Of a DNA stretch of 64,000 bases, positions 15,310 through 39,227 are shown one piece after another (the stretch's first letter is position 1; every line of letters begins with the position of its first letter). Source of the DNA: Phialocephala subalpina (taxonomy: Eukaryota > Ascomycota > Leotiomycetes > Helotiales > Mollisiaceae). The stretch spans positions 248,001 to 312,000 of the forward strand of contig FJOG01000042.1 in the NCBI GenBank assembly GCA_900073065.1. Reading direction: 5' to 3'. The notes under the pieces were generated by a model. It did not search any database. It was not told the DNA's origin and saw nothing but the letters and a program-made list of their open reading frames with translations. A program made the translations under genes and the position numbers.

Positions 15310-16680
15310 TCATGGCGGCTTTCCTTGTCTTCGTATATTACTTGAAGCTGGATTCGAATTCGAGTGCCAGTGCGGCGGAGACGGGGGAGCGGGTGTAGGC
15401 GGTGCTTGGCTTGTGATCGTCGTGTCCTTGAACTTATTGGTGCTTCTCTCACTATCAACCCTGGTTTCGTTGATGCTGTCCCTCGGAGATAAATTTGATG
15501 GCATATGTCGGTGCAAATTTGTCGCTATTGAGGCTCCGTTCTTGTCTTGGTTTGCGCTTTCGTTTTTAGCAGATTGCGCGGTTTCGACTAGGACATTCGG
15601 TTTCTGGATGTCTTCAGGTTCTCTAGCTGATCTGGAAGCCTCATCCAACTCCCAGTATGCAATGACCAGCTGTGACCAGTTGGAAGGCACACTCTGGTCC
15701 TCTTTTGCAAGCAGATCCCGTAATATGGAGAAGAGCGTGACTCCCTCAAGGCGAGATTCAAGTGCGGTATTCATCAGCCATTGACTGACTCTTTCCCTTC
15801 GTGTTGAGAAGACCTCCAAAGGCTCAGGATATAGTTCGATACCAGTATACCGAGATTTCGGAAGTGCGCGTCGTGATCCATACTCGTTGGCTAACGGTTT
15901 GTCTCCAGTCGCAGAATCACCGTGTGTTATTATTGGTGGCGGAAATCCCAAAACAGAGTCAATGTCTCCAACTCCAGAATCCAAATCAGAAACCGAGGAA
16001 AGATTTTCAAGTTTTTGGTCGTCTGCCTTCTGCAAGTCCAACTGCATCAAATCTTGTGCTGCGAAAGTGTTGTTGTTCTCAATTTTTGCGGTCTGTTCAT
16101 CTCGGCCTTCAGCATCAGAAGTTTGACTGCCATAATCGGAATTCGACGAGTAGGAGCTTGTGGCTTCACCACCATGAAAGGTAGAGTATTCTGCAGCATC
16201 CCTGAATTCCTCCTCAAACTCGTTGTACAGTTCCTCCTCGGCCTCTCTGAGCCTCCATAAGTGCCCTTGCCATTGAAGTTCAACGTCGATACTGTCTTGC
16301 TCTAGTGGACCTAGCAAATCTCGTGCAGCCTGACATTCGGCAGCCAGTCTCGATAATTCTTCGAAGCCTCTCAGTTTGCCTTGTGCATCGAGTCGTTGGA
16401 TCTCCCTCATGAACTTGTCATCTCGGACCCACACATCCTGTCGTTTGAACGAGGCTTCGCGTCCTTTCTGGCGAACCTCGATGCGGGCCCTTGTAGCTGC
16501 TCTCTGTAATTTGGCAACGCTCTGCAATGAGAACAACAGCTGGGCCCAACGATTGTTGTTGATAGTTTGAGAACCCTCCTCCATTCTAGGTTCGGTGTGA
16601 GGATCGTCTTCGGATGAATCCTTGTCTCCACATTTGCTTTGCCCCTGACTTTCCACCGGCGTCGAGGCAGACAGACCCAT
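15310..16680 (-). CDS. Coiled-coil protein, pair 1 (paralogue A)
   Basis: An uninterrupted ORF of 456 aa starting MGLSASTPVES. I do not recognise a named family, but it is paralogous to the minus-strand genes ending at 26645 and 33217. Shared layout: basic helix (about 55-110), helical hairpin with ECQAARDLLGPLEQDS (GPLE about 124-127) running into an acidic coil with LYNEFEEEF, a linker of Ser/Asp, then a second conserved block with RERVSQWLMNTALESRLEG (WL about 301) and PSNWSQLVIAYWELD. The C-terminus is low complexity (Ser/Pro/Asn). No signal peptide or membrane segment is seen. It is the shortest of the three paralogues. It faces the DUF6590 gene at 17599 across 918 bp, the same divergent arrangement as its two paralogues, so shared regulation or a complex with the DUF6590 product is likely but unproven. 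Confidence 0.82.
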   Translation of the reverse strand: MGLSASTPVESQGQSKCGDKDSSEDDPHTEPRMEEGSQTINNNRWAQLLFSLQSVAKLQRAATRARIEVRQKGREASFKRQDVWVRDDKFMREIQRLDAQGKLRGFEELSRLAAECQAARDLLGPLEQDSIDVELQWQGHLWRLREAEEELYNEFEEEFRDAAEYSTFHGGEATSSYSSNSDYGSQTSDAEGRDEQTAKIENNNTFAAQDLMQLDLQKADDQKLENLSSVSDLDSGVGDIDSVLGFPPPIITHGDSATGDKPLANEYGSRRALPKSRYTGIELYPEPLEVFSTRRERVSQWLMNTALESRLEGVTLFSILRDLLAKEDQSVPSNWSQLVIAYWELDEASRSAREPEDIQKPNVLVETAQSAKNESANQDKNGASIATNLHRHMPSNLSPRDSINETRVDSERSTNKFKDTTITSQAPPTPAPPSPPHWHSNSNPASSNIRRQGKPP

Positions 16681-17598
16681 TCTAGGGGGGTGGGCTCAAT
16701 TGAAGTCCGCTCCGAGTTCTCGAGCTTTGACTCGGTCGGATTGACAACGCGCTCAGGGGCCTGTCTGTATGGTAGACTAAAGAACACATGTCAGTTGACT
16801 CGGACTATCAGGTCGTTGTCAAACACGTAGCATTACTGCTGACTTCCGAAATAGCGAGGTAGAGATCTGGCCTCACCGTTAGAACATTGTCCAATGCCAC
16901 GCTGACACAAGTCGAAATTACCGTTTGGGCACAATTCACGAACTTCGTGCTCTGCGTAGTTGGGTACACACAATGGATATTCAGCGTCGGTTAAAACAAA
17001 CGGCGTGCAGGTGCAGCACGGCCCAATGGCTCAGATCAGTTCCAACTCACTTGTTATAGGTAATCCGATTTACCCGCAGGTGGGATCAATGCGCCACACA
17101 ATACCAATCAAACGGGATCGGGGGGCGATAAAGACGGAAGTAAAACCTTCCCGGAAACGAGGCAATCGGCTTGTATGTACACCTTTCTAAAAGCGGCGCC
17201 TTCCTCCGTGATTGGCACCAGGGGTTCTCATTTGCGACAGCCTTCTTCCCTACCTTAAGAATTGCCAATGGCAGGCACAGCGTAAGCGTCCTCTGATCCT
17301 ATCTTTGCAACCACTACCGCATCGTCATAGGTGTGCTGCCGAGACAAGACCAATTGGTGCATCAATGGACTTCCATGTCGAGCAGCACCAAGAATCGTTT
17401 CGCTGCAGAACTCCACACTATGGCTTGAGTCTTCCCAACGCACAGCTATCATACCACCTGGCTAATCTTTGTTTAGTCTGCGGCTCTGCGTGTGTATGCG
17501 GAGGCAATGTCGTGGCTGCAACCATAAAGAGGCACTTATCGGCCCAGCAATTACGATGATAAGTATGCACCCACGGAGCGGTCTCCAAGGAGCGAACG
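16681..17598. promoter_or_regulatory. Shared divergent promoter region, pair 1
   Basis: 918 bp between two start codons pointing outwards. It holds several CCAAT/ATTGG pentamers (for example near 16890, 17022 and 17212), which is not above what chance predicts. I found no long sequence shared with the equivalent regions of pairs 2 and 3. Confidence 0.5.
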
Positions 17599-19046
17599 AT
17601 GGCGCATCAATCGAGAAGTGCTGGAAAACATGCCGATTTATCGACTGACTGGTCAGAATGGATCTGGAGCGAAAAGGATGGGTACTCTTACTGCACTCGT
17701 TACGGCCCTACTGGTGAGCTAGAGTATGATTATTTTTACCCGGAGGAAACCAATCCAGAGGAAACACCACGCACAGTACCCACAAACTGGACTCAAGATA
17801 CTGGGGAAGGTGCCCCTCCTTCTTCAGATAGATATACTACCGATGATCCTGAAGACAACTCTGGCGAGGTCGGCGGTTCAAATTGGGTTCCAAACTATGA
17901 TCAGAGTACTTCTGTTGGTTCCTCGAGGTCCACAGGACAGCCAAATTATTCAGTCGCAATTCCAGCCTCTCGAAGTTATGGAGCATCTACTAGCAAATAC
18001 AACTCTGGCGTGGGAGATATGACGCAGCAGATGGAGGCGACGTATTTGGAGACTGTGCAAGGTACTATTGTTCCTCACCTTATCATCACAACATCATTAC
18101 TAACTTCCTTATAGAAGACTTGCCTCTAAAGTACGTGGAAGGGCCAGGAGGACAGGTAGGAACGACGAGACATATCACCCAGAGCCTCGATAACGACAAG
18201 CTCAGAGATCGTATGTGCCGAGTTTTCAGGCGAATATGATGATGCTAACTCTAGAAAGTATATGTCGAAATTGATGAGCGCAAGAACAAGAAATTCTGGA
18301 AACCAGGTCGTGTGTTCATGAGTAAGTGCATTTACTCCTCAGATTGCTATCCTTACCACTATATCTGACATCTCAAAAGTGTTGTGGACAGAACCAGCGA
18401 GGTCGCGAAACACGCAAGGATCCCAATACAACACTGTGTGGCTTGGACAACAAGTGTTCAGCGAGATCCGCCGCTTCGTCGTCATTGGGGAAGGATGGGG
18501 AAACGTTGTCTGCTCGTAAGTCACCATGGCTCCGGATTATTGGTTGTTCTGGTTGTCTGACATCGGCGCAGCCCCATTCATACTTACTCGGGGAAAGCCA
18601 CCCTCAAAGACAACCTACCCGACCCGCAACAACACGCCATTATTTACACGAGTTCGAAACCACCGGCCGAGTGCTGCGAAAAGGACTCTGCAGGCAAGAT
18701 TGTGCGGGAGGAGCTCATCAAAGATCCTATTCGAGTGGTGTCAGAGCTTGCTGGTCCGGACGGAGATCTAGGAACTCTTTCCAGGATCAACTACGCCAAG
18801 CTATACACGGTGGAGAAATACGTGCGGGTCCTCAACATCGGCAAGGTTCATGACGACTCTATGGACTCGCTACTCGCGAGCTGCTTCTTCGCTCGGCCTG
18901 CTGATGAGCCCCCGCAAGGACCCAGGAAGTCGAGACACAGCAGCAGCAGCAGCAGCAGTAGCAAGCCTAAGGAAAGGAGTGAGAAAAGAGACGATAGGGA
19001 CAAAGGACAAAGCTCGAGATCCGGTCGTCGAAAGGGGGGCCATTGA
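17599..19046 (+). CDS. DUF6590 domain protein, pair 1
   Basis: Model: join(17599..18061, 18115..18210, 18259..18321, 18380..18515, 18572..19046), 410 aa. The acceptor of intron 2 (at 18258, CTAGAAAG) is the least certain junction. The N-terminus has the motif WSEWIWSEKDGYSYCTRYG followed by ELEYDY, which recurs in a recognisable form in the other two paralogues. The DUF6590 core spans about 190-365: FWKPGRVFMMLWTEPA, EIRRFVVIGEG, CSPIHTYSGKA, HAIIYTS, PIRVV, LSRINYAKLYTVEKYVRV, IGKVHDDS. The tail is a Ser run encoded by a CAG/AGC microsatellite, then Arg/Lys-rich, possibly nuclear. DUF6590 has no established biochemical role. The gene lies head-to-head with the coiled-coil gene at 16680. Confidence 0.85.
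18938..18958 (+). repeat. CAG trinucleotide microsatellite in coding sequence
   Basis: Seven CAG units read in the AGC frame, giving the Ser run near the C-terminus of the pair 1 DUF6590 protein. Length polymorphism between strains would be expected. Confidence 0.85.
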
Positions 19047-21463
19047 AGATGAGTGGCGATTCCTCGATGCCGTCGCTGACTCGTCTCACTACGTTCGGAA
19101 TTCACTTGTCCATCTGCGAAAATTACGTTACACTTCAATGAAGTGCTCCCTCGGCTGCCGGATTTCTCTAAGCCAATTCATACGCTATAGGTCACCCTCT
19201 GCAACAGGTGTACTTTTACTACCAGCCTGCCTCCATTCATTATTGCTATGTTAAGGTTTCATCTCCTACTTTGAATGATGTTACGAGTTTCCTTGGATTT
19301 GAATCATTTTTGTTGTCTGGCATAGCTACTATACCCTTAAAGACTCTTAGGTCTTATTCATAGGAGGTCGAGGATTTCGTATACGCTAAGCACAGCACTT
19401 CACTTGTGAAAGATCAAGTACAGAAAAGAGGGTGTTTCCAAGTTCAGATTGATAAGGGTAATCACTCTGGAATGCTTTACAAGGCAACAATTCGAGCATG
19501 TATCCTTTCCTCAGCACAAACATACTTTTACTTGCCGCTTTGAGCAGTCGCATCATCTTGGCATGTGTTTCTATTGATTTCGACGTACGTCTATTGCCAC
19601 CGATGCTCGTCTCGCTTCAAGGTTGAGTCTAGCTTTGAGTCACCGCCGCTCAGTCATGACTCTATTCCCAGTCCTGGTCCTGCCGCCTACCACCGCCTCA
19701 CAGCTATCTCGAAACGAAGTTTTTCGCAAGCCAGCATCTCGGTTGTTCGCCTCGAAGTTTTCTCTACCCACACTCGTCAAGATCTTGATGGACGGATCCA
19801 CTGTTCTGAGTGCGTGCGAAACAACGTCCGACCGTGTTGTCTCCAAGCGTGTCTAGCTCAAGCCTCACTTTCTCGTTTTTACCCGTCCATCGAAAGAAAC
19901 TTTTGGGCAGCAATCTGCCAGTTTACTTCTCTGAAGATCCTCATACTATGGGAAAATTGCAGTTTGCATGGAAAACCAACGACCTGATCGCAGATCAAAG
20001 GTCTCCAACCGCCCAAAATTAAACACCCTCCCCAATCAAAACATCTCATCTCGTCAGCCTCGCCAAGCAAGCCCTATCCTTCACTGGACGCCACGTCCCG
20101 TCCCGCTGGGCCATTCTTTTCAGCACATTATCATTATCTATCCGCATCCGGCTAGATAGGGTACAGAAGCATACTAACGGTAAGTTACGGAGTTATGATT
20201 ACCAAGCCTTGCGCGATCCAGCTTGGAATGACTCAAGTCTTACCTTCCTGTCGGTACATGTGGATCTCACTCAATATTACGATGCATTGCAATAAGGAAT
20301 CCCAACCTTACCCAGAACTTCGGGTGGAGGCTTCCTCCTACGATTCCAACCTCCTCCAGTGTGCTCGCATCCTTCGTTCTATAAATAACTATCCAACTAG
20401 TCATTATGATTTGTTAGAGTAGATAAGGCAAAATGCACCGATACTAGGACGCATTCGACGTGCAGGATGCTGCGGCCTGTACCCCAGCTATTGCGACCAC
20501 GTGTGCAACATCTAATGTGACTGGCTTGGTTGCCTTACTGCTGCTTTATGCAAGGCAGCGGGTGTGAGTGGGGTACTGGTTGCCTCACGACGCAAACGTC
20601 CGGCGAGGCTCTACTTGCCCAGTCGTGATGAGAGGGGGGCTTTTGATTTGTGTTGTTCGCCCTGGCCTGACCCCACGATCACCGCACCCCAACTCCTCCC
20701 TTTCACAATCAAGAGCTCATGGCAACAAGACTATACAGGTAAGGTCCCAAGCCATGAAAGCATGAAAGTTTCCTTTGCTAATCTCCATTTTTGATGTGCA
20801 GCACAGTACTTCTCGCCTGTTTCTCATTCTGATCTTCGAAAACTTTATCCTCGTCCACCGTCCACCGTCCACCTCCGTCACATGCTAAGAAAGCAGACCG
20901 TTGCAAGTATCCAGACTACTACTTTACCTTTATTCCCTCTCCATCTGGACCCAGTGCCGGCAATTCAAACTGAAAACTCCCGCCACCACTAGGTATCTCT
21001 CCCCCTTCAACCTGAATATTAAAGAACATAGCTGGCTTAAGGGTTCCTGGCTCAGGCGGCTGCCAACCAGTCCACTCAGCCTTCCCTGTCTCAAAATCGC
21101 TCTGCGATCTTAATTCCGACAAGTCAGAATCTAAGTTTTCCGTCTTAGCCCAGACCGCAGCAATCTGCCCCGGAATATCCAGCGTATTCTCCATCTCTGC
21201 TTCGCTCCACGGTTTGAAGGAAATGATCGCCGTTGACTAACTTGATCCACTACGACCTTGCACGCATGCGGTGGCGGACTTAGGTTCCCGCAAGTGGGTC
21301 TCGACGGCCAAGGGATCTCCGTCTCCAAGTACTGTACGAAAGAACCTCGATGTCCGAGCCTAGGGCCAGAAGATCCGCGTAGCGATAATTGAGATCTCGA
21401 ACCAGGGGATAGGTAAAGAAGATCAGTCGCCTGACAGGAGTGTGGACTAAAGGGTGAGAGTTA
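19047..21463. other. Gene-poor stretch right of pair 1
   Basis: 2.4 kb with no supported gene. ORFs at 19565-19987 and 20564-20794 have no motif and overlap others. One diverged repeat (20540-20557) also occurs near 23056. The short minus ORF 20919-21194 has a plausible composition but no support. Confidence 0.45.
20540..20557 (+). repeat. Copy 1 of a dispersed diverged repeat
   Basis: An 18-nt exact match, GCTGCTTTATGCAAGGCA, to 23056-23073. The surroundings are also similar: a TTGCCTT or TGCCTTG just before, and GGTTGCCT about 25-30 nt after. The two copies flank the MITE and the decayed ORF. Confidence 0.6.
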
Positions 21464-21713
21464 CTCTACGGGGTACGGAAAAATTGGCCGATTTTGGCGA
21501 GGCGCACAAATGTGACAAATTTACAATTCTACTAACGAAGAATTAATAAAAGTCTTAAGTTATTATATTTGCAAGCTCAATAAGTAGTTTGACTGCGATA
21601 TCGGAAAGCGTATGAAATTCGACGTGCGGAAAGTTGAGAAATAAGGCATTCCGTACATTGGATTTTGATGTTCTAGCGTGCCAAAATCGGCAACTTTTTA
21701 CCTACCCGTAGAG
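21464..21713. mobile_element. MITE-like element with terminal inverted repeats
   Basis: The left end begins CTCTACGGGGTACGG and runs into TTGGCCGATTTTGGC. The right end, read on the minus strand, begins CTCTACGGGTAGGT and runs into GTTGCCGATTTTGGC. The inverted repeats are thus about 34-37 bp, imperfect, bounding about 250 bp of AT-rich sequence with no ORF. TTA/TAA flanks both ends, compatible with a TA target site, but the exact duplication cannot be fixed. Tc1/mariner- or pogo-type origin is inference from the size and TA flank. Confidence 0.72.
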
Positions 21714-21825
21714 AGTTAGCATTGAGGTTTTTGTGTGCCAGAGGAAGTCTTACTTGAAGCTTTCGCTGCATTTCTGGAACCCGCACTTCGACCAGAAAAG
21801 GCTTTGATGTTTGGATAGCTATTCA

Positions 21826-22320
21826 CTAAAGTTCGAAATACATGAATACATTGGAGTTGTGGCCATGCGTGAAACCAACGAGTGGCTCGGCAGCCGCAAT
21901 GGGATCGTCGAGGCTATCTTCTTCCTGTATAACTTGGTCATCATCCTCGTTAGCGATGCTGTTGAGGTTTAAGGAATTGATGTAATCTCTGTAAGAGGCG
22001 TCCCGGACTGCCTTATTTGTCTCGTATACCTTCGTATGCCAAGGGCAATGTTGTACTTGGCAACTTTGATGTCGTAATGTTTTCTTAATGACTGTCGACT
22101 CTTGGCTGAATCACCCTTCTTTCTGGGCGGCAATAGTCTGGGTGCGGTAGGCTGACGGTGGAGCGCCCGGATGACCGACTGCGGGCGCAGACAAGTGCGG
22201 TGTGTAATATAAACGACAGTCAGTACGATAATTAGCAGATGTCTGTACGGACGAATCGATTCTCTCTACGGGTATAGCTGGTGGAACTCGTATTCGTTCC
22301 TGCACGTCTGGATTCCCCAA
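21826..22320 (-). pseudogene. Decayed ORF, family unknown
   Basis: On the minus strand a single frame stays open from about 22320 to TAG at 21826 except for one in-frame TGA at 22111-22113. The part after that stop reads like real protein (TLRHQSCQVQHCPWHTKVYE, then ARDYIN-type sequence with SYRDYINSLNLNSIAN, then an acidic stretch). No ATG starts the frame; a TAA lies just upstream. I do not recognise the product. It sits 112 bp from the MITE-like element in a gene-poor, AT-rich stretch, so a transposon-derived or captured gene is possible. One CGA-to-TGA change would explain the stop. Confidence 0.5.
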
Positions 22321-26644: not shown

Positions 26645-28381
26645 TCAAGTACCTCCCCAAGGCATTCCTCGAAGAGAAGTTAGTGTTTGAAGTTTGCTCG
26701 TGCCGAATGCGCGTTCCGTGTCGTCTGAAACTTCGGAAGCAGGTCGGCTTGAAGATGAGAGTAGAACGTGAATCGAGCCTCGCATATGCTCTTGTGACAG
26801 GTCTGATGAATGTGAAGTCTCGTCCGGATGTTTTGTGCTCATACTCGAGTGGCTTGCTGCTGGCACTGGTCCTGGACTTGTGATCGATCCTGCGGTGCCG
26901 TCTTCGTACCAGACCTTGAGAACACGGAATTGCCAATCTTTGGGAGTCCTTCTGTATTGTGTCTCGAACGTGCTGGCCAGTAGATTGACATCGAGAGGCG
27001 AAATTCGTAGCTTGTTCAGCAACCACTCATTGATCCGAGTCGTTGCTGTCTCTGACGCCACGTCAGGTCTCGACTCGAACTGTCTTCCGTGTTTCCTCCC
27101 CGGTTGAGGAAGTAGTAAGGGATATTTGACATACTCTGAATTGTGATCACGTGGATCCATATCCTCTTCCACGAAATAGGATTCTTCCTGGCTCTGGAAA
27201 CTGGTAGGCTCTCCATCTTCGTCGATTAGGTTCTTTGATAAGCATTTCCGCTTCAGGATTTCCAATTCCTTCTCTAATGAATGTATTTTGCCGATGATTT
27301 CGGCGTGTTCTGTTTCTGCATCGTCGAGCCATTCTTGGTCATCCGCGTCGAGGGTGAGGCCGAACCGGTGCCGGGATTGTTTTTCTGCTTCCAGAGCTGC
27401 TTTTTCGTCTCGGAATTCGTCAAGTCGTTCTTGCATGAGATCGAGGTCTCCTAGTTTCGAGAGGTAATCGTTGACCAAGGGATGATATTCTGATGGTTCG
27501 AAGTCATCGTCGTCGTCGTCAGAAGCAATAGATGACGATGCAGAATGCTCAACATTCAGCAATGATGGTGGAGGAGGTCTTGATGGCTGTGACTGGCTTT
27601 CCTTCAGCTTGGCGAAAAAGTGATCTTCGAGTCGAGCAAGCCTAAATTCTTGCTGCGAAACGCGGTCCTCGAGGCGATTGCAGTCGTCCTCTAATGGCCC
27701 ATACTCGTTCCTGGCTTCTTGGCAGTCATCCATGAGTTGCATTAGACTCTTTTGACCTGGAAACGGACTGCTGCTGGAGTCTGTGAGGTTCAGACCACGT
27801 GCTGTCATGTAGGTGATGCGTCGAAATAATATGTCGTCGGCAGCTGATTTGACTTCCTGCTTCACGCGCAGGCTGGCTCGCATCTGATGTATCTGCGAAC
27901 GTAGATTCCAGACATCTGCTCTGAGTTTCTGGATCTCCTGCCATTCTGGTCTTGATTCGAATTTCTGGGTTTCCAAGCCTGGTGATAGTCCGAGTGTGGT
28001 GTCTGAGAGGGTCACGAGTGCCTGACTCGGAGTCGCCAGCTCCCATCGCGGAGGCGGCATATTGGGTAAGCCCATTACAGGTCGTGACACGTCCTTTGGA
28101 GTCGACGCGTAACTCTGTGGTGATGTTGGACGCGTTTGTCCAGTGTCAGGTGATTTTGGGAGGTTTCCATCCGAAATGCGTTCTGGTGTGTGCTTTTCAT
28201 GTTTTCTCGTAGCAGGGCTAGGCAGCGGCTCTGAAGTTTGCTCGGTGTCCTTCCTTCGGGTCGCGACTGCCCCACCCGTCCGACGTCCCCCGTTCCTGCT
28301 GGCAAGTGCCCGTCTTCCTTCGCTGGGCGCGTCCTTCGGGCTCAGCAATCTCAACGTTAACCTCTCGTCTTGCTTCGACAT
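26645..28381 (-). CDS. Coiled-coil protein, pair 2 (paralogue B)
   Basis: The ORF is open from 28690 but that first codon is GTG. I choose the ATG at 28381 (MSKQDERLTLRLLSP), giving 578 aa; an ATG at 28474 is also possible. Residues 1-140 are basic and Ser/Pro rich. The two conserved blocks of the family follow: helices with the motif DDCQEARNEYGPLEDDCNR (GPLE about 228-231) running into RLARLEDHFFAKL, then an acidic coiled coil (DEFRDEKAALEAEKQSRH) and TRINEWLLNKLRISPLD with a TPKDWQFRVLKVWYEDG end. The C-terminus is Ser rich. It is paralogous to the genes at 15310-16680 and 33217-36345. It faces a DUF6590 gene (29181) across 799 bp. Function unknown. Confidence 0.8.
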   Translation of the reverse strand: MSKQDERLTLRLLSPKDAPSEGRRALASRNGGRRTGGAVATRRKDTEQTSEPLPSPATRKHEKHTPERISDGNLPKSPDTGQTRPTSPQSYASTPKDVSRPVMGLPNMPPPRWELATPSQALVTLSDTTLGLSPGLETQKFESRPEWQEIQKLRADVWNLRSQIHQMRASLRVKQEVKSAADDILFRRITYMTARGLNLTDSSSSPFPGQKSLMQLMDDCQEARNEYGPLEDDCNRLEDRVSQQEFRLARLEDHFFAKLKESQSQPSRPPPPSLLNVEHSASSSIASDDDDDDFEPSEYHPLVNDYLSKLGDLDLMQERLDEFRDEKAALEAEKQSRHRFGLTLDADDQEWLDDAETEHAEIIGKIHSLEKELEILKRKCLSKNLIDEDGEPTSFQSQEESYFVEEDMDPRDHNSEYVKYPLLLPQPGRKHGRQFESRPDVASETATTRINEWLLNKLRISPLDVNLLASTFETQYRRTPKDWQFRVLKVWYEDGTAGSITSPGPVPAASHSSMSTKHPDETSHSSDLSQEHMRGSIHVLLSSSSRPASEVSDDTERAFGTSKLQTLTSLRGMPWGGT

Positions 28382-29180
28382 ATAGGTGTTTCTCTCGGAG
28401 CCTGTGGGATGACTAGCTTCGGACGTGCATTCGAGCACCTGACTTCCACGACGGTGTGACGAGCGCAGAGACATGTCAGTCTGACCATCGGTGTCGACGA
28501 GCGTCGTGTCGACACATGATATGAGGCCCGTATCGAGTCGACGACCAAGTTGGGGCAAGGCTGACGATATCCAGAGTCGATGAGGTTGCTTGGTTGTGCG
28601 AGGCGAGCACAGAGCCGCACACCTAGCTTCCGCGATTCTTTTTTGGGAGTGCAGTCCTCCCGCAATCCCGGAGTGGGGGGTTCGCGTCACGCATTGGGAC
28701 GCCGACAGGGCTGGTCAGACGCCTGCTCATTGCGTGGGGAGTGAGATTTCAGTGAGTGCTGAACACAACCGCTTAGCGAGCAAATCTCAGCACCAGAGAC
28801 TCTTCCCAGCTCCATCTTCTTGCAGCGTAAAGCAGCATCATTTGCTCGTCACAAGCTCTCCATACCATCCCGCGAATAAGAGTCCTGAAGGTGGCCGAGC
28901 CTTGTCGAAAGGCGCCTGCACAGTGATCAGAGTGGACGAAGTTGCCCACTCTACCCTTACAGCGTCCTTAGGCTGCATGTACAGCGTGTTAAAATCAGCA
29001 TCGTGGCATCGCAATGGCCGTGGTGTGGACGCAAACTGCGGCTCTTCTCTTGCCAATTCTGCCGCCGAATCACTGATAAAGACGTGTGTGACAGACGTTC
29101 GGCCGCACCGTTTGGAAACGTCTTTGCTGTTCATGGCAAGAAATGGATTTTCCTTCCGTTGTTTATAACGCAATGCCACA
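28382..29180. promoter_or_regulatory. Shared divergent promoter region, pair 2
   Basis: 799 bp if the 28381 start is right. An open minus frame continues to 28690, so the 5' leader of the coiled-coil gene may occupy part of it. I found no motif shared at length with the other two regions. Confidence 0.45.
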
Positions 29181-30979
29181 ATGTCGTCCTCCTCTCGCTC
29201 AAAACATCGCTCGAAGCGATCATCATCATCGTCATATTATCCAACCCAGTGGAGTCAATGGGAGTGGGATACAGAACGTGCCGATTGGAAGCGGTATCGA
29301 TTAAAAGCCAAGGGTATGACAAAAAAGCAAATGTGGAAGGGGTCTCTGACGAAGTGATCCCAGATGAATATGAGTTTGAATACGAATCGACGTCAGCAGC
29401 TGCAGATTCGGCAGAACCCAGGACACCCCAACCTTCACTGGACCCAATCTCCGAGGACTCGTACTCTTCGTCAGCAAATTATGCCCTATCGTCAGGGCCG
29501 TCGGTGGCGGGAATCACTCGAGGACTCGCAGCATCATCACTAGCTTCGGAAACCACAGCCGTCCCGCCGAGGAATCAAACTCCAGGAGTGAGCGATACTC
29601 ACATCACGACGATCAATCCTTATACCGATAAAGAAGAATTCGATCCTCGTAAGTAGAAGGCCATGCCGGTGATTATCACATGCTAATGTTGCACAAGACT
29701 ACAAGGTTCACAAAACCTTCGAATTCAAGCAAGGACGGGTATGTCTTCGTGGCTATGACTTGCGGGGTCTTGCTGATTTTCAAAGGTGTTCAAGGTCCTT
29801 TGGTCCGAACCATCAGGCCAGGGGGGAGGCCGAGGTGATGGAAGCAGTAATCCCGAGACCTATACGGAAGGAGTCAACAAGTTTGGAGAACCTTCCTTCC
29901 AGAAAGTTCGACGTTTCGTCATAATCAGGCCTCTTGCTGGCCATTGTATTTGTTTGTGAGTTATTATTAAAAGTCACCTCGTGACTTTTCTTTCCAAATT
30001 ACTGATTTCAGCCAGACCTATCAACACATATTCCAGACAAGGCGTGACGAAGAATGGAGTTCATGCCGGCGATCACACCATCGCCTACAGCGGAATCAAG
30101 GCCGTCTACTTTAAAGGCGAGAAGGCGAAAGGTCTCACGAAGAAGCCTCTCAAGATCGTGACGAAAAACCCTCGACACAAGCTAGCAGACACTTCTCGTC
30201 TCAACTACGCCAAAACGTACACTGTCGAGTACAATGTCAAAGTTTGGTTCATCGGAAATGTCGACAAGGATTCCATGTGGCATTTGATCACGGATTTCAA
30301 TCAAGTCCATCCACCTCTTGGTACTCAAGGCCTGACAGAACCTTCTCCGTTCCAAGATGGAGAGACCTCTTATGCTGATGGAGGTATGGAGGACTCTTAT
30401 GACTCTTACACGCCTCAAGATTCAGGTTATGGATCCATGGCAGCATCTTACGGCTCGCCGGCATCTTCATACTCACAGCCTTCATACTCAGCGTCCTATG
30501 ACCAGCCCCACGCTCCGACTGAGAAATACCCACGAGGCTCATCTCACAGTGAACGCCCATCGCGGTCCAGAGGGAAAGGGAAAGCAGTACAAAGGGACGA
30601 GGTACCTGAAGAAGACATTGCCGAGGATCCTGGAGAGGCAGAGCATGGCTATGACAAGCATGCGTATGAAGATCCTGGGGAACCGGAATACGACTACGAT
30701 GCGTACAATCAAGCGAGGCATGATGAGGGTGATTATGCTGCGCATGAGTACGGGCCAGCGACTGAGCATCATGTTGTAGAGGCACCTCTGGATGAAGGAC
30801 ATCAGATGTACCATGACCCCGCATGCGCACCAGAAGCAGAAGCAGCAGCGTACGATTATTCAGCAGCACCCGAGGACTATGAGCACCATGGGCGAGCGCA
30901 TGGAGATTATGTTGAGCATGAAGGAGTCCACACGGGGACGTATCACGCTGCGGTTGCGGAGCACAGCGATGAAGAATGA
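29181..30979 (+). CDS. DUF6590 domain protein, pair 2
   Basis: Model: join(29181..29313, 29355..29648, 29698..29738, 29786..29955, 30016..30979), 533 aa, all phases consistent. The 41-nt first intron is short but joins the N-terminal motif WSQWEWDTERADWKRY to PDEYEFEYE, matching the other paralogues. The last acceptor was placed at 30015 because it restores CICLPINTY. The DUF6590 core spans about 143-310: YKVHKTFEFKQGRVFKVLW, KVRRFVIIRPL, HTIAYSG, LADTSRLNYAKTYTVEYNV, FIGNVDKDS. The long tail (about 311-533) is low complexity, rich in Tyr, Glu, His, Ser and Ala with repeated EDPGE-type units and a basic SRGKGKA patch. This looks like a disordered, possibly phase-separating segment (inference). 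Confidence 0.86.
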
Positions 30980-33216
30980 CAGCTTCGTCAAGACTCCTTC
31001 GCGTCCGAGGCTGATGAAAGAGGGGATGTTCCTTATGAGAGAGTATTTCTCAAGACTGAATTTACGTTGAGGCATCGCATTCGTGCGTGTCTCTTCAAAC
31101 TACGCTATTGGATGCTGGTACCCTCGAGCTCACTCGAGGCTTCCTCCCAATAAACTAGACCCTGTATTTTTTTTATGGCGGGGTTCGTGATTTCCAGGTC
31201 GAGATTCCTGTTGGATTTCCAGATTGATTTTCGGTGGTGGTCTTTTCGACGCGCCTTTTTGATGGCGGAATGATTTTTATCCCGCTTCATGTTTGAATTT
31301 TCTTCCTGCTTGGGGGTTTCAGCGAGCATATTTTTCATAGCATATTACTTACGACTCACGATTACGACAAAGCATGGGAACGATGAAAATCGACAGAGGA
31401 TGCTATCAGTGCAGCTACGTTTTGGTTCGATCTGGCATTGGCATATGGTTACATTTTAAATGCATGGGTTTGGATGAGCGGGGCTACAATAAATACCTAG
31501 ACTCCTCTTCTGGTCAGCTGACCAGATTTGGATTTCTGGATTTTTGGATTGAGAATACATGTTCACAATCCGTCTTGTCAAGTTATGTTTTTGGGGCGAC
31601 AGCTTTCTTCAAGCCATTAGGTAACATTGCATCAATAAATGATTCAGAATGGCAAACTCCTCATCCACAAATCTCAAAATCGCATGATCACTGCTGCCCA
31701 TCAACGCCCATTCATGTCTCCATACCCAACCCAGCCTCATTACCCCGCATCAGAAAAAGAAAAGCAATTCATCTCACCTCCCAATCTCAGCCTTTCCCCA
31801 ACTTTCCAAAAACGGCCCTCAGCCTCGTCGCCGCTCTTCCGTTCAAGGGAACGCCACACTCGCCCGACTACATAGCAAACCCAAAATAACCTTGCAGATT
31901 AACCCTTGCTTGCCCTAGCATGTTGCACGGCCCGCACAATTATTTTATCACTTCTCGGATTCCGGGATCGGGATCCTTGCTGGCTAGTTTGGAGTTAGAT
32001 GAGGATGTCTTACCAGCCGCGCGGATAAGCGGGGGATTGGGGGGAAAATTGGATGAGCCACCACAACGATGATGACGACGCGTACCACTTTGTCGGGCTC
32101 GTAAATAAATCGATGCTTTTTAAGCTGCCATTCCATTGCGTACGAATTTTGAGGCGAATTGTCCGTGTGCATGAGGGTCTCTGTTGTCCTCTCCTTCCTC
32201 GTAACCATACCGCCTCGCAAACACTCAGCTCCGAAGATCTCGTATCTTAGCCTATAAAACGCCAATTCTCGTCTTCGTATCCGGAAAAGTGAAGTATTGG
32301 AAAGGCAAATAAAATGAATGGCCGAGATGAATGCCGAAATCACGAATCGTAACCAGGTACCGGGTTTGGCGGATGTTATTGGTGAGGCGGAATTGTAAGG
32401 CTGAAGCTGAATCAAGCTGGCTCGGTTGGCACGAGGAGGAAGCGAAGCGAGATGATCTGCGATGCCGGGAGTTGGAGGGGAGGTGAGTCGGGCGTTGTGA
32501 AAAGGGGTACATCGGGCGTTGGAAAGGGGTCAGGGCCTAAGATACAGGGTTCTTGAGATGAAGATCAAAGAGATGAAGGTTAATAGCCGGTGGGCATCGG
32601 CTATGATTTGTCGGGCGAAGAACAAAGTCCTCGTTTCGCTTGAGACGAACGATCATATGTCTGCGGGGGAGGAAGAATGGCTCTATAGAAGCTTGAGAGA
32701 AATTGAGAGAGAGAACATCCAGAGTAACAGACAGTAATTAAAGAGGCAAAATATGCCAGGTGTAAAAATATATCGTATGTGCTAAATCTAGGGTATCATA
32801 CTTGTAAACATATACAGAAGTCTTTAGATCGGCCCACTTGTCCCATCCCAATTTTCCCCAACAAAAACCAAAAAGAGACATAAGAAAAGCAGTAGCATGT
32901 TTGCAATCTGTAAATAATGAGAAATGAACTCCATCTATACCATCCTGGCCTAATAGAACACCAAACACAAAGACATGGCATTCTGATAGACGAAACAGAA
33001 AGATTGCGTATTAAATCATATATTCCCGCTCTTGAACCTGCAAGAGAAATGGAGGAGACGAAAATCTGCCGCCAAGCAATAAACAACCCCAGCGAACTCC
33101 TTCGCTATGTGTGCAGAACTTGGAACGAAACACAAACTTTAAACCAGATATATGATAATTATACAAGTACTGAGGAGAATCGTAAAGTTGATAAATAAGA
33201 GATTTTAGTTAGCAGG
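30980..33216. other. Intergenic region between pairs 2 and 3
   Basis: 2.2 kb between converging 3' ends, so it is longer than terminators need. ORFs 31374-31889 (+) and 31984-32415 (-) have no recognised motif. The first has four Cys but no zinc-finger spacing. I see no RNA gene or repeat. Confidence 0.45.
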
Positions 33217-36200
33217 TTAATGAGTACTATTGTACCTCGTTCCCAATGTTGGGCTGACATTGAGTCCTGGTCTTGTTGCGTATTGAAGGGCAAACCGTCC
33301 TAGGCCCAAACTGTATTCTGTTTGAGGTTTGGCCTCTTGTATTTCAGCTTTCGAATATCGTTTCTTGGTATTGAGATTATTGGCAAATTTGTTAAAGGTC
33401 CCCCTCGCCCGAAGCCCAAATTTCTCGCGGGTCTCTTGTAACTTCCTGTGGCATTTGTTTTCTGCTAGGTGGCGGACGGTGGAGTTTTTGATGTTGTCTG
33501 CGAAGTTGAGCAATCCATTAACTCGGTGCAAGATCAGGATCGACATGGTGAAGCGACCCGTAACTTGACGCTCGCCGTAATGCATGTGAAGCCCTCGCCA
33601 AGATCGATGAAGGAGAAAGGCTTCGCTGACGGCTGTGGTTGCTCGAGACTTGCAGAGCAGCTCTTCCCGAGATGGGATCGCTACTTGTCCGTATTGTGAT
33701 GGTAGGGACGACGTCGCTTTTAGCTCTTGGGCGATGCTTCGGGGGTTTGGGTCTTCGAATGGTGTGGTGGTTGTTGGTATTTCGAGGGTTGGCGTCTCGG
33801 TGGTTTGAGTAGTAAATGCTGTCTGCGCATAAGGCGAAATATTGTCCTCAGACTTTGACGCCGATACTATCTCCCAAAGTCCAGTCCGCTCGAGGCCAGG
33901 GCTTAACATTGCAGTTGAGATTTCGGTAGTTGTATTGTCGTAGTTAAGCGGACATTGTTCAGGCGTAGCAGAAGTTGTATCGTTGTGAAGATCAATCGAT
34001 GGCATTACCTCGAAGAGCGCAGACTTTTCTGGTTCAGAATTTGGCTTTGTGTTTATCGCGTCGAGGGACAGTGTTGTCATGTCGGTGTGCTCAATGTTAC
34101 CGATGGTAGGCCGTGCTTTCGGAGTAGCTATCATATCATTCTGGGGATTCGAAAGTGGAGGTTGTGAAGTTTCGAGGATTGGTGGACTGAAGGCTGCTGT
34201 GCTTTCTTGAATGAAGTTTGAGATGTCTGGCAAATTGCTTATATCAGGGTGATCACTCGTTGGTAAAGTTGGTTCGGCCTCTGGAGGGTTGTCTGTCGTT
34301 TGTTCAACAATTTGAGATTCCTCGTTTGGGTTACAGGAAGGGTCTTGGGGAATGTGTAGAGAATCATTGTCAGTGCAGGACGATTGGAGAGACGGCTTTC
34401 GTCCAGATGTGGCGAGGCTGTTGATGCTTTGGATGGAGACAGAAAGGCTGTCGTGGGGATGAGGAACGTTTTCTTTGAGTGGCATGCTAGCCATGACAGG
34501 AAGCCCAAGGCTGTTGGCACTAGGAGTTTGAACTTGTGAGGCAGCAGTTGGGGTGGAGTCAAGAGCCAGTGATATTAGGGGAATTTCTTCGCCTGCACTC
34601 GAAGCTCTTTGTCGGCCTGGGGCGACTGGCGACCCTGCTTGCTGAGTTGTATGAGACGCAGATTCGGTTCCGACGAGAGGCTCATCCATGACTTCTTCCT
34701 CGTCCACGATAGCGTCTAAAGTCCGTAGACTGCTCGAAAGACCTGATCTTCCCGTGCTTGTAGCATGCCTCTTGCCAGCAGCTCCTGGTGTGATTCCAGC
34801 AATCGTATCAAGCCTGCTTTCACGGTTGTTCTTGTTCGCCGAATCGCCTGCTTGATCTTTGTCCCAGTTTTCCACTGCTAGTTCAGACCACCTCTCATCG
34901 CCTAGCTTTTCCTTGTCTGCGTTATCGGGGAATTCGAAGTATATCCAGGATCGGAGAAGTAAAGCCCCAACCGTACTTTCTTCAACCCACTGCAAGAGCC
35001 ACTTATTAACATAATCCTTCTTGTCTCCGAAATTGGCGGTCTTTCCATCGTAACGAAGGTGAAGGGCCGCAACGCGAATAGGCGATCTTTCTCGCGCATC
35101 GTACACCGAATCCATAATATCGTCACATAATGCGTCCCTTGGCTCATATGCATGTTCAGATTCCGTGAAAAGGCCCAGCTCAAGGCACTGGTCTCGCATA
35201 TTGAAGAGAGCGTCTTCGGCATCTCGCAGGTCGTTCAGAGCTTCTGCATGCAGTCTTGGGTAATCGTCGAGGAATTTCGAAGTCTCTTCGGTGAGTGGTA
35301 TGTTATGGCGCTGACGGAAGGTTGCGGCTCCTGACTCTTTTAAATAATCGTGTTCCAAATCCTCTATATCTTCTTTCAGCCGTTCTGCCTCCTCCACTTT
35401 GTCCAAGTATTCTCGCACAAGAGGGTTGTCTAAGGCAAGGTCCGTGGGCTCCGAATCGATAATCTGTGATGGTTCTGCAGGCGGCGAAAGGCTGGCGTTG
35501 ATTTTGCTTTCAGGGACAGATATGTTAAAAAGTTCGTTGTGGCGATAGAAATGGTCTTCCTCTTCCTCGAGATCATCTTCCTCTTCATCCAACCTCCTAG
35601 CCAAAGTGTCGTATTCATCCTCTGCAGGGCCAAGTTCGTCCTGCGCAACGCGAAGCTTCTCGTAATACGGATCGATACTATCTGGGATGGCTAGGTTCAA
35701 AGCTCTGATTTCATTAAATTTCCTGGTCAATTTGTCGATAGCATCTCGAACGTCGTTCCGAGCTCTTTGCACTTTTTCCCTACAGACTCTGAACCGATGC
35801 CGAGTTCGTCGTGCTCGTTCACGCCGAATAAGCATCCGCTCTCGAGCTCTCAACTGCCGAGCCTGGACATCAAAACCCACCTCCGAGCCATTGCCTTCGA
35901 CGCCTCTGGTTGAATAATAAGCTGAATCTTGTCTTGGTGGTCTTGAAGCTTGATTTGGGCTTTCTGCAGCGGACGAAGCATATGTGACTTCTCGAGGCCT
36001 GTTCTCTGCCTTGTCTTCCGGAGTTTGGGGTCTTTGGGAGCTTCCCACTGGTGATTCAAGCATGGCGAAGGCTTCAATTCTTCCCAAAATAGATTCATGA
36101 TTCTGATCACGAACATCCAGCGACTGTAATCTCAACTCAGACACTGGATCAGCGCTAGATTGCTTGGGCTCATGGGAGACGGCAGGGTCTGTCGCCGTCC

Positions 36201-36345
36201 GGGCATTCTGTTGAATTGGTGGCTGGTGGCCCTGGAAGGACGGACGTGGCCCCAACGTCGGCAACAGCTGTCGATGTCCGTCATCTCCTGCTTCTACTTG
36301 ACACGTCTTCGTTCCAGGACCTGTGTCTGATATGCCATCGGCCAT
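33217..36345 (-). CDS. Coiled-coil protein, pair 3 (paralogue C, long form)
   Basis: An uninterrupted 1042-aa ORF from ATG at 36345 (MADGISDTGPG). After a disordered Gln/Pro/Ser N-terminus comes a very Arg-rich helix (about 165-200), then the family hairpin with LRVAQDELGPAEDEYDTLA (GPAE about 239-242), a run of Glu/Asp ending DHFYRHNELF, a second coil (about 300-340) and the WL block YVNKWLLQWVEESTVGALL with ERWSELAVENWDKD. A long Ser/Thr/Pro-rich disordered middle (about 500-870) follows. Paralogue C alone adds a C-terminal basic domain of about 150 residues with RSWRGLHMHYGERQ, LHRVNGLLNFADN and RARGTFNKFANN. It lies head-to-head with the DUF6590 gene at 37319. It has no membrane segment and no recognised catalytic motif. 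Confidence 0.83.
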   Translation of the reverse strand: MADGISDTGPGTKTCQVEAGDDGHRQLLPTLGPRPSFQGHQPPIQQNARTATDPAVSHEPKQSSADPVSELRLQSLDVRDQNHESILGRIEAFAMLESPVGSSQRPQTPEDKAENRPREVTYASSAAESPNQASRPPRQDSAYYSTRGVEGNGSEVGFDVQARQLRARERMLIRRERARRTRHRFRVCREKVQRARNDVRDAIDKLTRKFNEIRALNLAIPDSIDPYYEKLRVAQDELGPAEDEYDTLARRLDEEEDDLEEEEDHFYRHNELFNISVPESKINASLSPPAEPSQIIDSEPTDLALDNPLVREYLDKVEEAERLKEDIEDLEHDYLKESGAATFRQRHNIPLTEETSKFLDDYPRLHAEALNDLRDAEDALFNMRDQCLELGLFTESEHAYEPRDALCDDIMDSVYDARERSPIRVAALHLRYDGKTANFGDKKDYVNKWLLQWVEESTVGALLLRSWIYFEFPDNADKEKLGDERWSELAVENWDKDQAGDSANKNNRESRLDTIAGITPGAAGKRHATSTGRSGLSSSLRTLDAIVDEEEVMDEPLVGTESASHTTQQAGSPVAPGRQRASSAGEEIPLISLALDSTPTAASQVQTPSANSLGLPVMASMPLKENVPHPHDSLSVSIQSINSLATSGRKPSLQSSCTDNDSLHIPQDPSCNPNEESQIVEQTTDNPPEAEPTLPTSDHPDISNLPDISNFIQESTAAFSPPILETSQPPLSNPQNDMIATPKARPTIGNIEHTDMTTLSLDAINTKPNSEPEKSALFEVMPSIDLHNDTTSATPEQCPLNYDNTTTEISTAMLSPGLERTGLWEIVSASKSEDNISPYAQTAFTTQTTETPTLEIPTTTTPFEDPNPRSIAQELKATSSLPSQYGQVAIPSREELLCKSRATTAVSEAFLLHRSWRGLHMHYGERQVTGRFTMSILILHRVNGLLNFADNIKNSTVRHLAENKCHRKLQETREKFGLRARGTFNKFANNLNTKKRYSKAEIQEAKPQTEYSLGLGRFALQYATRPGLNVSPTLGTRYNSTH

Positions 36346-37318
36346 AGAAGAGAAGCCTCGTTTTCATCTGGATAGTGTTGTTGAAGTCACGCTGTTGTGG
36401 CTTGCCAGAGGAAGTCGGGTACCTGACTAGGGACAGATCTACACACAGCATCGGGCAGGTTCCCGGATGTGATATATTCTTCTGGGTGCTGAGCTGAGGA
36501 AATATTACGATGTGATTGCCACTGCCACACTGGCTACCGCTGGCGGATTGTCGAAGAGCCGCATGAGAACTATTCTGCATACAAATGGGAACAGAAGACA
36601 CAGCCTTGAGTGAGGGTGTGGTGGTCGAGAGATTGGTGGCTTGCAGGGATGCACGGAGCCTACAGGGGCTCCAAAGTTTCTTGTTAGTGGCGGGCCGCGA
36701 GGGAAAGGTGTGCGGCAAGGCTGCAGAAATTAGGTTACAGACGGCAAGGGCATTGGCCCCAGGTGTCGCCAGCTCCCAAAGACACCCCACGCGTCTCTTC
36801 ATCATGACACTTCTTTGCAGCAGCCCAAGCACGACGAGGGGCCATACAGAATCATCTTTCCGAGAAGATGCATCACTCTGATGACTCTTTGGTGAGAAGC
36901 TCCCGATGTATCACCTTTATCCGCTGCCTGCCCTCCTCTTCTGGCCTTCCACATGTCACTCGCGCCGCTTTTCCATATGCTGCATACAATGCTGCCTTGA
37001 AAGCGTCCATGTGACCCTCGACCTATCAAGACTGTCCATGATTTTCGCAATTCATGCATGCCTTAGCCAGACGGCTATCAATGGCGTCCACCATCGACAA
37101 CATCCATCTTCGGGAGCAACACACCCCGCATTCACATACACATTCACACCCACATGTGCAGCGATACGTGGACCATCTGCTCACAATCGATCGGACCCCA
37201 CTATGTCTCTCGATGCAGAGCCTCAACCAATCTTCTCCGCCCTATGGGATAAAGGGTGAGCAATCGCGGGGCAAGGCACTCCTCGGCCTCCAAACCGTTC
37301 AGCGAGTCTGTCTCACTG
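36346..37318. promoter_or_regulatory. Shared divergent promoter region, pair 3
   Basis: 973 bp between outward-facing starts. The plus frame of the DUF6590 gene stays open upstream to a GTG at 37256, so its real 5' end could lie slightly further left. No long shared element with pairs 1 and 2 was seen. Confidence 0.45.
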
Positions 37319-39227
37319 ATGGCGGATACCCAGTGGCTATCAGAGCCTGAGACCGGGCGATGGTATGTAAATTATACGGAATCAAGTAAACTATCATGCG
37401 GCTCGTCGATGTTTGCCTTTACTAACTGTCATAAATAGACGGCCGGACTGTTCGCAGATACTCGGACGAGTTGCAACAGTCAGAGCAACCTCGATACCAA
37501 CCTGAGTACCAAGAAGTTCCTGAAGAATATCCACAAGAATCGGGACCTGGAGCACAGCCGTCGTCGTAAGTGCAACCGCCAATTACCTACTACCAAAATT
37601 GATCTAACTTTGTCCTGACAGTCGTCGGCGAACTCGAGACACTCGTCCTCCCATTACTTCCTCGACCTCGACTAGAGGTACTCGAAGAAAGTCTGTATCC
37701 TTTCCAGAATCTAGTCGTCAGGCCGAGCTCGTACCCGCACAGGGCAGTCGACATGAAAGAAGATACCATGGGTCTCGAGGATACAACCAGTCTAGAGAAG
37801 GAGAGAGGTCGGACGACAGGTCACCATACGAGACTTATCGAACCCCGAGGCCGGATCCTACAATTGGAGGCGAGCAAGAGTCCTATTACGAAGATAATGC
37901 TTCGGTCGACTCCGCCGCCGGAGAGTTGGAGAGGATGACCATGCAAGACCCCGACCTTGTTACTGGCCCTCATTACAAATTCTCGCCTCCTCAGCCAAGT
38001 GCCGGCTTGCCATGGAGTGCCAACGTTGGCGAAGCCCGCGGAAGCTCCCGTCCTCGCCCGCCCATTCCTGTGGCTGGAGATCCACATGCGGGTCCTACCG
38101 AGAAACTCGACCCCAGTTTCCGAATCAGAAACAACGACTACAAAACCTTCTTCAGGTGCGGCCGTGTATTTAAGACTCTTTGGACAGACCCTGCTGGTCC
38201 AATGACCGCGAGTGAGAATAGCCAGTTCATGAGCAAGGTCAGATTTAGAGTTGCACATGGCGAATATGTTTACTCGAAGATCAGACGCTTCGTCGTCGTT
38301 ACGCAAGGTAATAGATCTTGCCAATGTCTCCCAGTGACCACCTATGATGGCAAAGGCTATGCAAAGAGAGGGATCAATTTAGACGAGCACGGTCTCATCT
38401 ACAATAGCGACGAAGCCCCTGTCAACGTCGCTGGTATTACCAAATACCCACTTAGGGTCAAACCTTCAAAGAATGGTGAAAGGTTGACTGGCAATTCATA
38501 CATCAACTACGGAAGAGCATATTGTGTCGATACGAACGTGAAAGTCAAAGACGTCGGAGAACTTGACTCAGCTTCGAGAAAATGGCTACGGGAGTACTAC
38601 AAAGAGATCCATTTCCCTCCCGATGAAGACATGACTGGTCCGAGCTATTCGAAACCTCCTAGCCAGTCTACCCAACTCCTAGGTATCACAGGCAACGCTG
38701 ATGATTACGTTTATGGGCTACAGGGTACCCAGGCTGAGGCTTCCATGACCTCGCGCTCTTCACGGTCTGCAGTTAAACGTCGTCAGTCATCGAGTTCCTA
38801 CCAGCCCGACGATACGTGGACCGAAGCTGAGGCCGTGGGACAATACCAATCTGGAACACAGTACAGCGAGGACTACGATCGGGATGCTCCTGGCAGCGCT
38901 AGTCCACAGTGGCCTCCAGCTGATGAGAGTCATATTCCCCATGACTCGGCGCACTTTATACCCCCGCAGCCAAGTGCCCAGGACGAGTACGGGTATGAGC
39001 AGCAAGAGCATTATGAGCAGGCACCATTATCTGGCTCTATCGAGGATCCCAACTACTCACCTCCTGTTGGTCCCCCTCCGCAACAGACTAGCGAACTGGA
39101 ACAAGCTGGATATGATGAAGAAATTGTTCTCCCCCAGCCTCAAATTCCATCTAGCTCCAGGGAGAAACACAGGCGGAGTCATAGAGAGAGAGACAGAGAC
39201 AGCGACAGAAGGAAACACAGACATTGA
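37319..39227 (+). CDS. DUF6590 domain protein, pair 3
   Basis: Model: join(37319..37385, 37439..37565, 37622..39227), 599 aa, phases closed. The start is the first ATG of the frame (MADTQWLSEPETGRWYVNY). Its N-terminal motif aligns with WSEWIWSEKDG and WSQWEWDTERA of the other copies. Introns carry good branch points (ACTAAC, CTGAC). Residues about 65-220 are disordered and Arg/Tyr/Ser rich. The DUF6590 core spans about 226-400: KLDPSFRIRNNDYKTFFRCG, RVFKTLW, KIRRFVVVTQG, SCQCLPVTTYDGKG, HGLIYNS, PLRVKP, SYINYGRAYCVDTNVKVKDV. The core is in one exon here, unlike the other two copies. The tail is Gln/Pro/Tyr rich and ends in an RERDRDSDRRKHRH run, probably nuclear or RNA-associated (inference). 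Confidence 0.87.

Follow-up and report, generated by a model that had tools for sequence, protein, structure and literature searches.

Type II toxin-antitoxin operons such as mazEF hold two unrelated families side by side, one of them with a toxin-type fold. Conserved divergent gene pairs of fungi lie less than 1 kb apart and are kept across species; in the available part of Davila Lopez et al. (2010; PMC2871058), such pairs tend toward related function and show a conservation optimum at 100-1000 nt between genes. The het-S and nwd2 genes of Podospora are, in the available part of their description (PMC4344463), two adjacent unrelated fungal genes acting together. A 64,000-nucleotide stretch of the root-dwelling ascomycete Phialocephala subalpina (Leotiomycetes, Helotiales, Mollisiaceae; assembly GCA_900073065.1, contig FJOG01000042.1, positions 248,001 to 312,000 of the forward strand; hereafter the window) contains a gene pair with likeness to each of these: a leftward gene encoding a coiled-coil (CC) protein and, head to head with it, a rightward gene encoding a protein with DUF6590 (PF20233), a Pfam family of unknown function. 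The pair occurs three times and is read here, tentatively, as a joint module. It differs from mazEF in its head-to-head order, whereas mazE and mazF of E. coli form a tandem operon, in that CC is a large helical-hairpin protein, not MazE-like, and in the abundance of solitary DUF6590 genes. A type II system requires a partner gene that belongs to the operon and encodes a recognised kind of antitoxin; the CC gene is divergent and its family matches no Pfam model above cut-off. Unlike the pairs in the available part of PMC2871058, both CC and DUF6590 are uncharacterised and the pair is multiplied within one genome, and unlike het-S/nwd2, to the extent that the available text describes it, neither partner shows an NLR, prion or HET domain by Pfam. 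DUF6590 is named in no paper of the literature searched, which holds few subscription journals and no bioRxiv preprints; in the same literature PF20233 occurs only in an unrelated drug-delivery paper, no fungal MazF is found in titles or the beginnings of abstracts, and the match for a MazF fold in Ascomycota concerns bacterial endosymbionts.

A sequence-only reading of the window had proposed three CC/DUF6590 pairs of the same polarity, and these are found as described: an ATG stands at each of the six proposed start codons, the CC frames of units 1-3 are open along the minus strand, and the gaps from ATG to ATG measure 918, 799 and 973 bp. The features, in window positions and including an 8-mer, GAGCCGCA, treated below, are:

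15310..16680, minus strand: CC gene of unit 1, a single open frame of 456 amino acids (aa) plus stop; family profile expectation value (E) 3.6e-13
16681..17598: intergenic region common to the unit 1 genes, 918 bp, ATG to ATG
17479..17486, minus strand: GAGCCGCA site of unit 1, 112 bp ahead of the DUF6590 start
17599..19046, plus strand: DUF6590 gene of unit 1, five exons by eye; Pfam 84.8 bits in the last exon; profile
26645..28381, minus strand: CC gene of unit 2, a single open frame of 578 aa plus stop; 106 relatives; fold model of the annotated protein
28382..29180: intergenic region common to the unit 2 genes, 799 bp
28612..28619, plus strand: distal GAGCCGCA site of unit 2, 561 bp ahead of the DUF6590 start
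29037..29044, minus strand: proximal GAGCCGCA site of unit 2, 136 bp ahead of the DUF6590 start
29181..30979, plus strand: DUF6590 gene of unit 2 (PAC_17103), gene model; 99% identity to PAC_17103; fold model
29181-29313, 29355-29648, 29698-29738, 29786-29955 and 30016-30979, plus strand: exons of the unit-2 DUF6590 gene model
33217..36345, minus strand: CC gene of unit 3, a single open frame of about 1042 aa plus stop; family profile E 3.6e-19
36346..37318: intergenic region common to the unit 3 genes, 973 bp
36556..36563, plus strand: GAGCCGCA site of unit 3, 755 bp ahead of the DUF6590 start, off the position of the four other pairs
37319..39227, plus strand: DUF6590 gene of unit 3, three exons by eye; Pfam 156.1 bits

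All three rightward genes carry DUF6590, as proposed: PF20233, with a gathering cut-off of 27 bits, scores 84.8 in the last exon of unit 1, 89.8 in the last exon of unit 2 and 156.1 in unit 3, reaches 154.5 in the annotated unit-2 protein and matches all 24 members of the DUF6590 set A2. The unit-2 protein is 99% identical to PAC_17103 of P. subalpina. Exon counts of five, five and three agree with the earlier ones: unit 2 shows a script-built model with GT-AG introns of 41, 49, 47 and 60 bp, and those of units 1 and 3 are taken by eye from translations. A profile of unit-2-type CC sequences, from which units 1 and 3 were excluded, recovers unit 3 with E 3.6e-19 and unit 1 with E 3.6e-13, values that rule out mere generic coiled-coil similarity as the source of the likeness; judged by profile, the CC proteins of the three units are one family of true relatives. 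It is mainly the helical hairpin that carries the match. Taken alone, the WL(L/M) block at the C-terminus, which had been offered as a shared mark, scores 0.0006 in unit 1 and just 0.14, a weak value, in unit 3. The claimed paralogy stands. The predicted fold of the annotated unit-2 CC protein shows hairpins from helices 176-295 and 332-413 at high confidence, a C-terminal helical block (477-524) at lower confidence and a mostly disordered part (1-167); a search of solved structures by sequence gives a single designed coiled coil at E 0.53. The CC relatives from named organisms are, we take it, all Leotiomycetes.

The P. subalpina assembly searched comprises 68.1 Mb, with the window on the contig labelled C100, and contains at least 13 DUF6590 loci, two of which (C119 c and d) are possibly one two-domain gene; CC relatives were sought with single-protein queries. 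A CC relative lies beside five of the 13 loci: units 1-3 and one locus on each of the contigs C46 and C36, all divergent. The gap between start codons is 678 bp in C46 and 669 bp in C36, where the CC gene shows no WLL block, so the five pairs span 669-973 bp on three contigs, each below the 1 kb that defines a divergent pair. With 6 CC and 13 DUF6590 loci, chance predicts about 0.002 neighbours no more than 1 kb apart (6 x 13 x 2 kb / 68.1 Mb). Five are seen, which are not five independent events because pairs may have been copied as units. Identity among the five pairs is 14-36% for CC and 29-46% for DUF6590, and by this measure the paired copies are very old, as the sequence-only reading had held. 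The CC and DUF6590 distances of the five pairs correlate (r 0.84), a value reached by two of 120 permutations, the identity included. Segmental duplication that copied neighbours which simply never separated would alone yield repeated pairs and congruent distances; yet these very old copies keep the divergent order and the 669-973 bp gap in five of five cases on three contigs, 12 of the 17 other assemblies also show the link and the pairs have a promoter word in common, and an account with no functional link is regarded as improbable.

This word, the 8-mer GAGCCGCA, is present in all five intergenic regions, at six sites on either strand. It lies 112 bp (unit 1), 136 bp (unit 2), 116 bp (C46) and 116 bp (C36) ahead of the DUF6590 ATG, a position of 112-136 bp in four of the five pairs that was spotted post hoc. 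By chance, some 8-mer common to all five regions turns up four times when dinucleotides are shuffled 3000 times, and 11 times when real stretches are drawn 3000 times. The exact word is found in none of seven upstream regions of unpaired DUF6590 genes, which begin at gene ends from profile hits, not full gene models, and with one mismatch allowed it is found in five of the seven; the eighth unpaired locus, C119d, directly follows C119c and was left out of this set. Genome-wide, GAGCCGCA occurs 1673 times and its letters in reverse order 1761 times, and because it is common in the genome it marks nothing alone. No longer consensus around it was seen by eye. The common word, like the MazF/PemK-like fold described below, is new relative to the sequence-only reading.

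Linkage outside P. subalpina was judged from shared contigs and locus tags in the protein lists (121 CC and 83 DUF6590 entries), which do not cover orientation; the CC list searches scored only about 8000 candidates sharing most words, and absences there mean little. By manual count, 18 named assemblies, P. subalpina included, appear in both lists, and 13 contain both families on one contig, that is, 12 of the 17 others: M. scopiformis, Leptodontidium PMI_412, Cadophora M221, Hyaloscypha variabilis (two assemblies), Stipitochalara, H. finlandica, Lachnellula willkommii, Cadophora gregata, Ciborinia, Cadophora MPI-SDFR-AT-0126 and Rutstroemia WRK4. Serial locus tags follow gene position. Such tags are present in six of the 12, and CC and DUF6590 are apart by 1, 1, 1, 1, 3 and 4: they are consecutive in Cadophora M221 (009370/009369), H. 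variabilis (015882/015883), L. willkommii (001881/001880) and Rutstroemia (8759/8758), and near in C. gregata (011709/011712) and Ciborinia (011256/011252). When contigs of the two lists are matched by size, 16 are common to both, the window's own included, and jittered sizes give a mean of 0.14 and a maximum of 3; a common megabase contig is weaker evidence of linkage than a common small one. These 16 include contigs of 2295, 6088 and 6425 bp: the 6088 bp match, consistent with both family trees, and the 6425 bp match, which is unsure, are outside the count of named assemblies, and the 2295 bp match (P0019/P0136) was rejected as linkage evidence, its 600 and 447 aa proteins being too big for one contig. 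As far as testable, linkage is above chance, in favour of the earlier reading.

The trees of both families are quick ones, with many branches below 80% support, and both split the unit-2 class from the C46 class. Partners on a common contig belong to the same class in eight of the 12 linked assemblies: M. scopiformis, Cadophora M221, both H. variabilis, L. willkommii, H. finlandica, Cadophora MPI and Stipitochalara. In Leptodontidium and C. gregata, the CC and DUF6590 proteins found differ in class, as would be expected if two pairs lay side by side and the lists had missed one partner of each. Rutstroemia and Ciborinia show a CC outside the unit-2 clade and a DUF6590 inside the matching clade. 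The CC proteins of units 1 and 3 form very long branches (more than four changes per column), and because of this their placement is unsafe. Congruence of the partners, which the earlier reading proposed as a check, is seen in the five pairs of the genome and, between species, mostly by class.

Unpaired copies of both families are also present. The nearest relatives of the unit-3 DUF6590 are the unpaired C119c (71%) and C100b (65%), and that of the C36 DUF6590 is the unpaired C64 (69%); pairing has therefore been lost or gained within subclades. Four lone CC-like places show E below 1e-3: C117:835660-836190, C67:810800-811081, C13:90743-90934 (one stop) and C73:732280-732576 (two stops). No DUF6590 was found in the flanks of the C117, C67 and C13 places, nor, by the genome list, on contig C73. 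CC copies seem to decay when unpaired, two of these four fragments holding internal stops. A second DUF6590 cluster, C119:213387-226654 (L021, L022), holds four of these domains and, in between, three copies of another unnamed family (216498-217106, plus strand; 219187-219816 and 223027-223650, minus strand) with a mutual identity of 29-32%, no copy elsewhere in the P. subalpina genome and no Pfam match above cut-off. By reading frames, with approximate gene ends, each copy neighbours a DUF6590 gene in divergent order, which looks like a replacement of CC by another partner. A gene encoding a HET domain (heterokaryon incompatibility; PF06985, 107.9 bits) adjoins this cluster at L021:1315-3318. 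The DUF6590 protein PAC_16928 (L021:4388-5913) shows a zinc-finger-like sequence ahead of the domain and a W-x2-W-x-W element; because this element is behind the domain instead of in front, it seems, from its placement, a movable module. On C100:196000-205900 (L024), an unpaired DUF6590 gene lies between two large look-alike frames of 724 and 741 aa, which match no Pfam family at E 0.1. In the window, a frame matching DUF6594 (PF20237, 36.7 bits, cut-off 30) is located at 40938-41504 on the minus strand, 1.7 kb past unit 3. A scan of IMG/VR with DUF6590 gives 62 pattern matches and no relative.

A couple of the toxin-antidote or allorecognition kind, in which one product is harmful without its linked partner and the pair is kept without benefit to the fungus, would agree with the toxin-type fold predicted for DUF6590, with pairs that are tightly linked, multiplied and strongly diverged, with the loss of pairing within subclades and with the HET-domain gene beside the C119 cluster. 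Against it, neither partner matches a HET, NLR or prion family by Pfam, many DUF6590 genes are without CC, and the unit-2 pair is fairly conserved between Phialocephala and Mollisia (57% for CC and 73% for DUF6590 over the aligned parts), unlike a fast-changing conflict gene; of all the accounts weighed here, this one is held the least likely.

The predicted fold of the DUF6590 domain is that of MazF/PemK-CcdB, to which 50 of the 50 structural-aligner matches listed belong: the model combines a MazF-type SH3-like barrel with a small sheet of three strands on its N-terminal side and with long regions of disorder. The catalytic Arg of MazF (Arg25 in B. subtilis, Arg29 in S. thermophilum; PMC10893535) aligns to Arg195 (PAC_17103 numbering), which is Arg in 85 of the 85 rows with a residue there. 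The catalytic Thr (Thr48/Thr52) aligns to position 213, which is variable; all 85 rows have Thr or Ser one position further on, and a one-residue shift of the alignment is conceivable. Arg195, Thr/Ser214, Lys222, His230, Ser270, Asn273, Asn283 and Lys285 are the conserved polar residues, a set that, from conservation, looks like a site binding or cutting RNA or another nucleic acid. DUF6590 resembles MazF/PemK/Kid (PF02452) and CcdB in its predicted barrel, the Arg of an RP-VV strand and a PxT core, and differs from them in a domain about 60 residues longer with an extra N-terminal sheet and disordered tails, and in its eukaryotic, intron-bearing genes. It is not filed as MazF, because the Thr position is variable and PF02452 gives no match. 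Across the P. subalpina genome PF02452 shows no matches, and it matches in three of 14 control genomes; no solved structure matches DUF6590 by sequence.

A functional pair could also be structural or signalling in kind, with DUF6590 a non-catalytic peptide- or RNA-binding barrel, CC a scaffold and no nuclease or toxin step. The variable Thr position, the long disordered parts of both proteins and the helical hairpins of CC, which suit a scaffold or granule, would agree with this, and not every MazF-like SH3 barrel is a nuclease: the matches include CcdB, which its entry title describes as a topoisomerase poison. The near-invariant charged or polar Arg195, Lys222, His230, Asn273 and Asn283, however, exceed the needs of a plain scaffold, and we consider this account rather unlikely. 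At the other end, DUF6590 might be a branch of the MazF/PemK superfamily that is widespread in fungi and still acts on RNA, and CC a controller dedicated to it. The pair would then be a eukaryotic counterpart of toxin-antitoxin modules, with introns and one common promoter, multiplied, diversified and perhaps with exchangeable partners; CC is present at five loci and another repeated family beside the DUF6590 genes of C119. In this full form the idea is improbable.

Joint function of CC and DUF6590 is the best reading because of the prior given by divergent pairs, the old and kept pairing, the congruent distances and the promoter word, and the predicted fold suggests a DUF6590 protein acting on nucleic acid with CC as its controller or adaptor. 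We tentatively favour, as possible though short of probable, a module of two co-regulated proteins, with CC holding or aiming the DUF6590 protein, a mechanism that is inferred. Both genes would be read back to back from one short common region, and the pair would have been duplicated and retained as a unit; the conserved polar site of DUF6590 may bind or cut RNA or another nucleic acid as its putative target, and CC may bind the DUF6590 protein in a complex and restrain or place it. Several results weigh against this module. Eight of the 13 DUF6590 loci show no CC neighbour in the stretches examined, and pairing is not obligatory; the two-component unit of the earlier reading is partly supported, by linkage and congruence. 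In five of the 17 other assemblies (Cudoniella, Halenospora, Cadophora DSE1049, H. hepaticicola and Hyaloscypha PMI_1271) the families are on different contigs only, and no CC-DUF6590 fusion is present among the 83 DUF6590 and 121 CC proteins. On the side of the folds, Foldseek gives no match below E 1e-3 for the DUF6590 model, hhalign gives a probability of just 6 or 35% (column shuffles in one direction, that scoring 21.3), PF02452 matches none of the 24 DUF6590 proteins at E 10 or below, position 213 is variable, and the fold search with CC returns generic helical hairpins only.

The pair would then be an old two-gene module of Leotiomycete fungi. A 2020 review (PMC7180214) catalogues, in its available part, toxin folds in common with eukaryotic systems and states that it is not clear how the MazF barrel is related in evolution to other proteins of SH3 type. 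If the reading is true, a fungal family that has the MazF fold and is linked to a partner gene of its own would open the question of the kinship of the MazF barrel to test.

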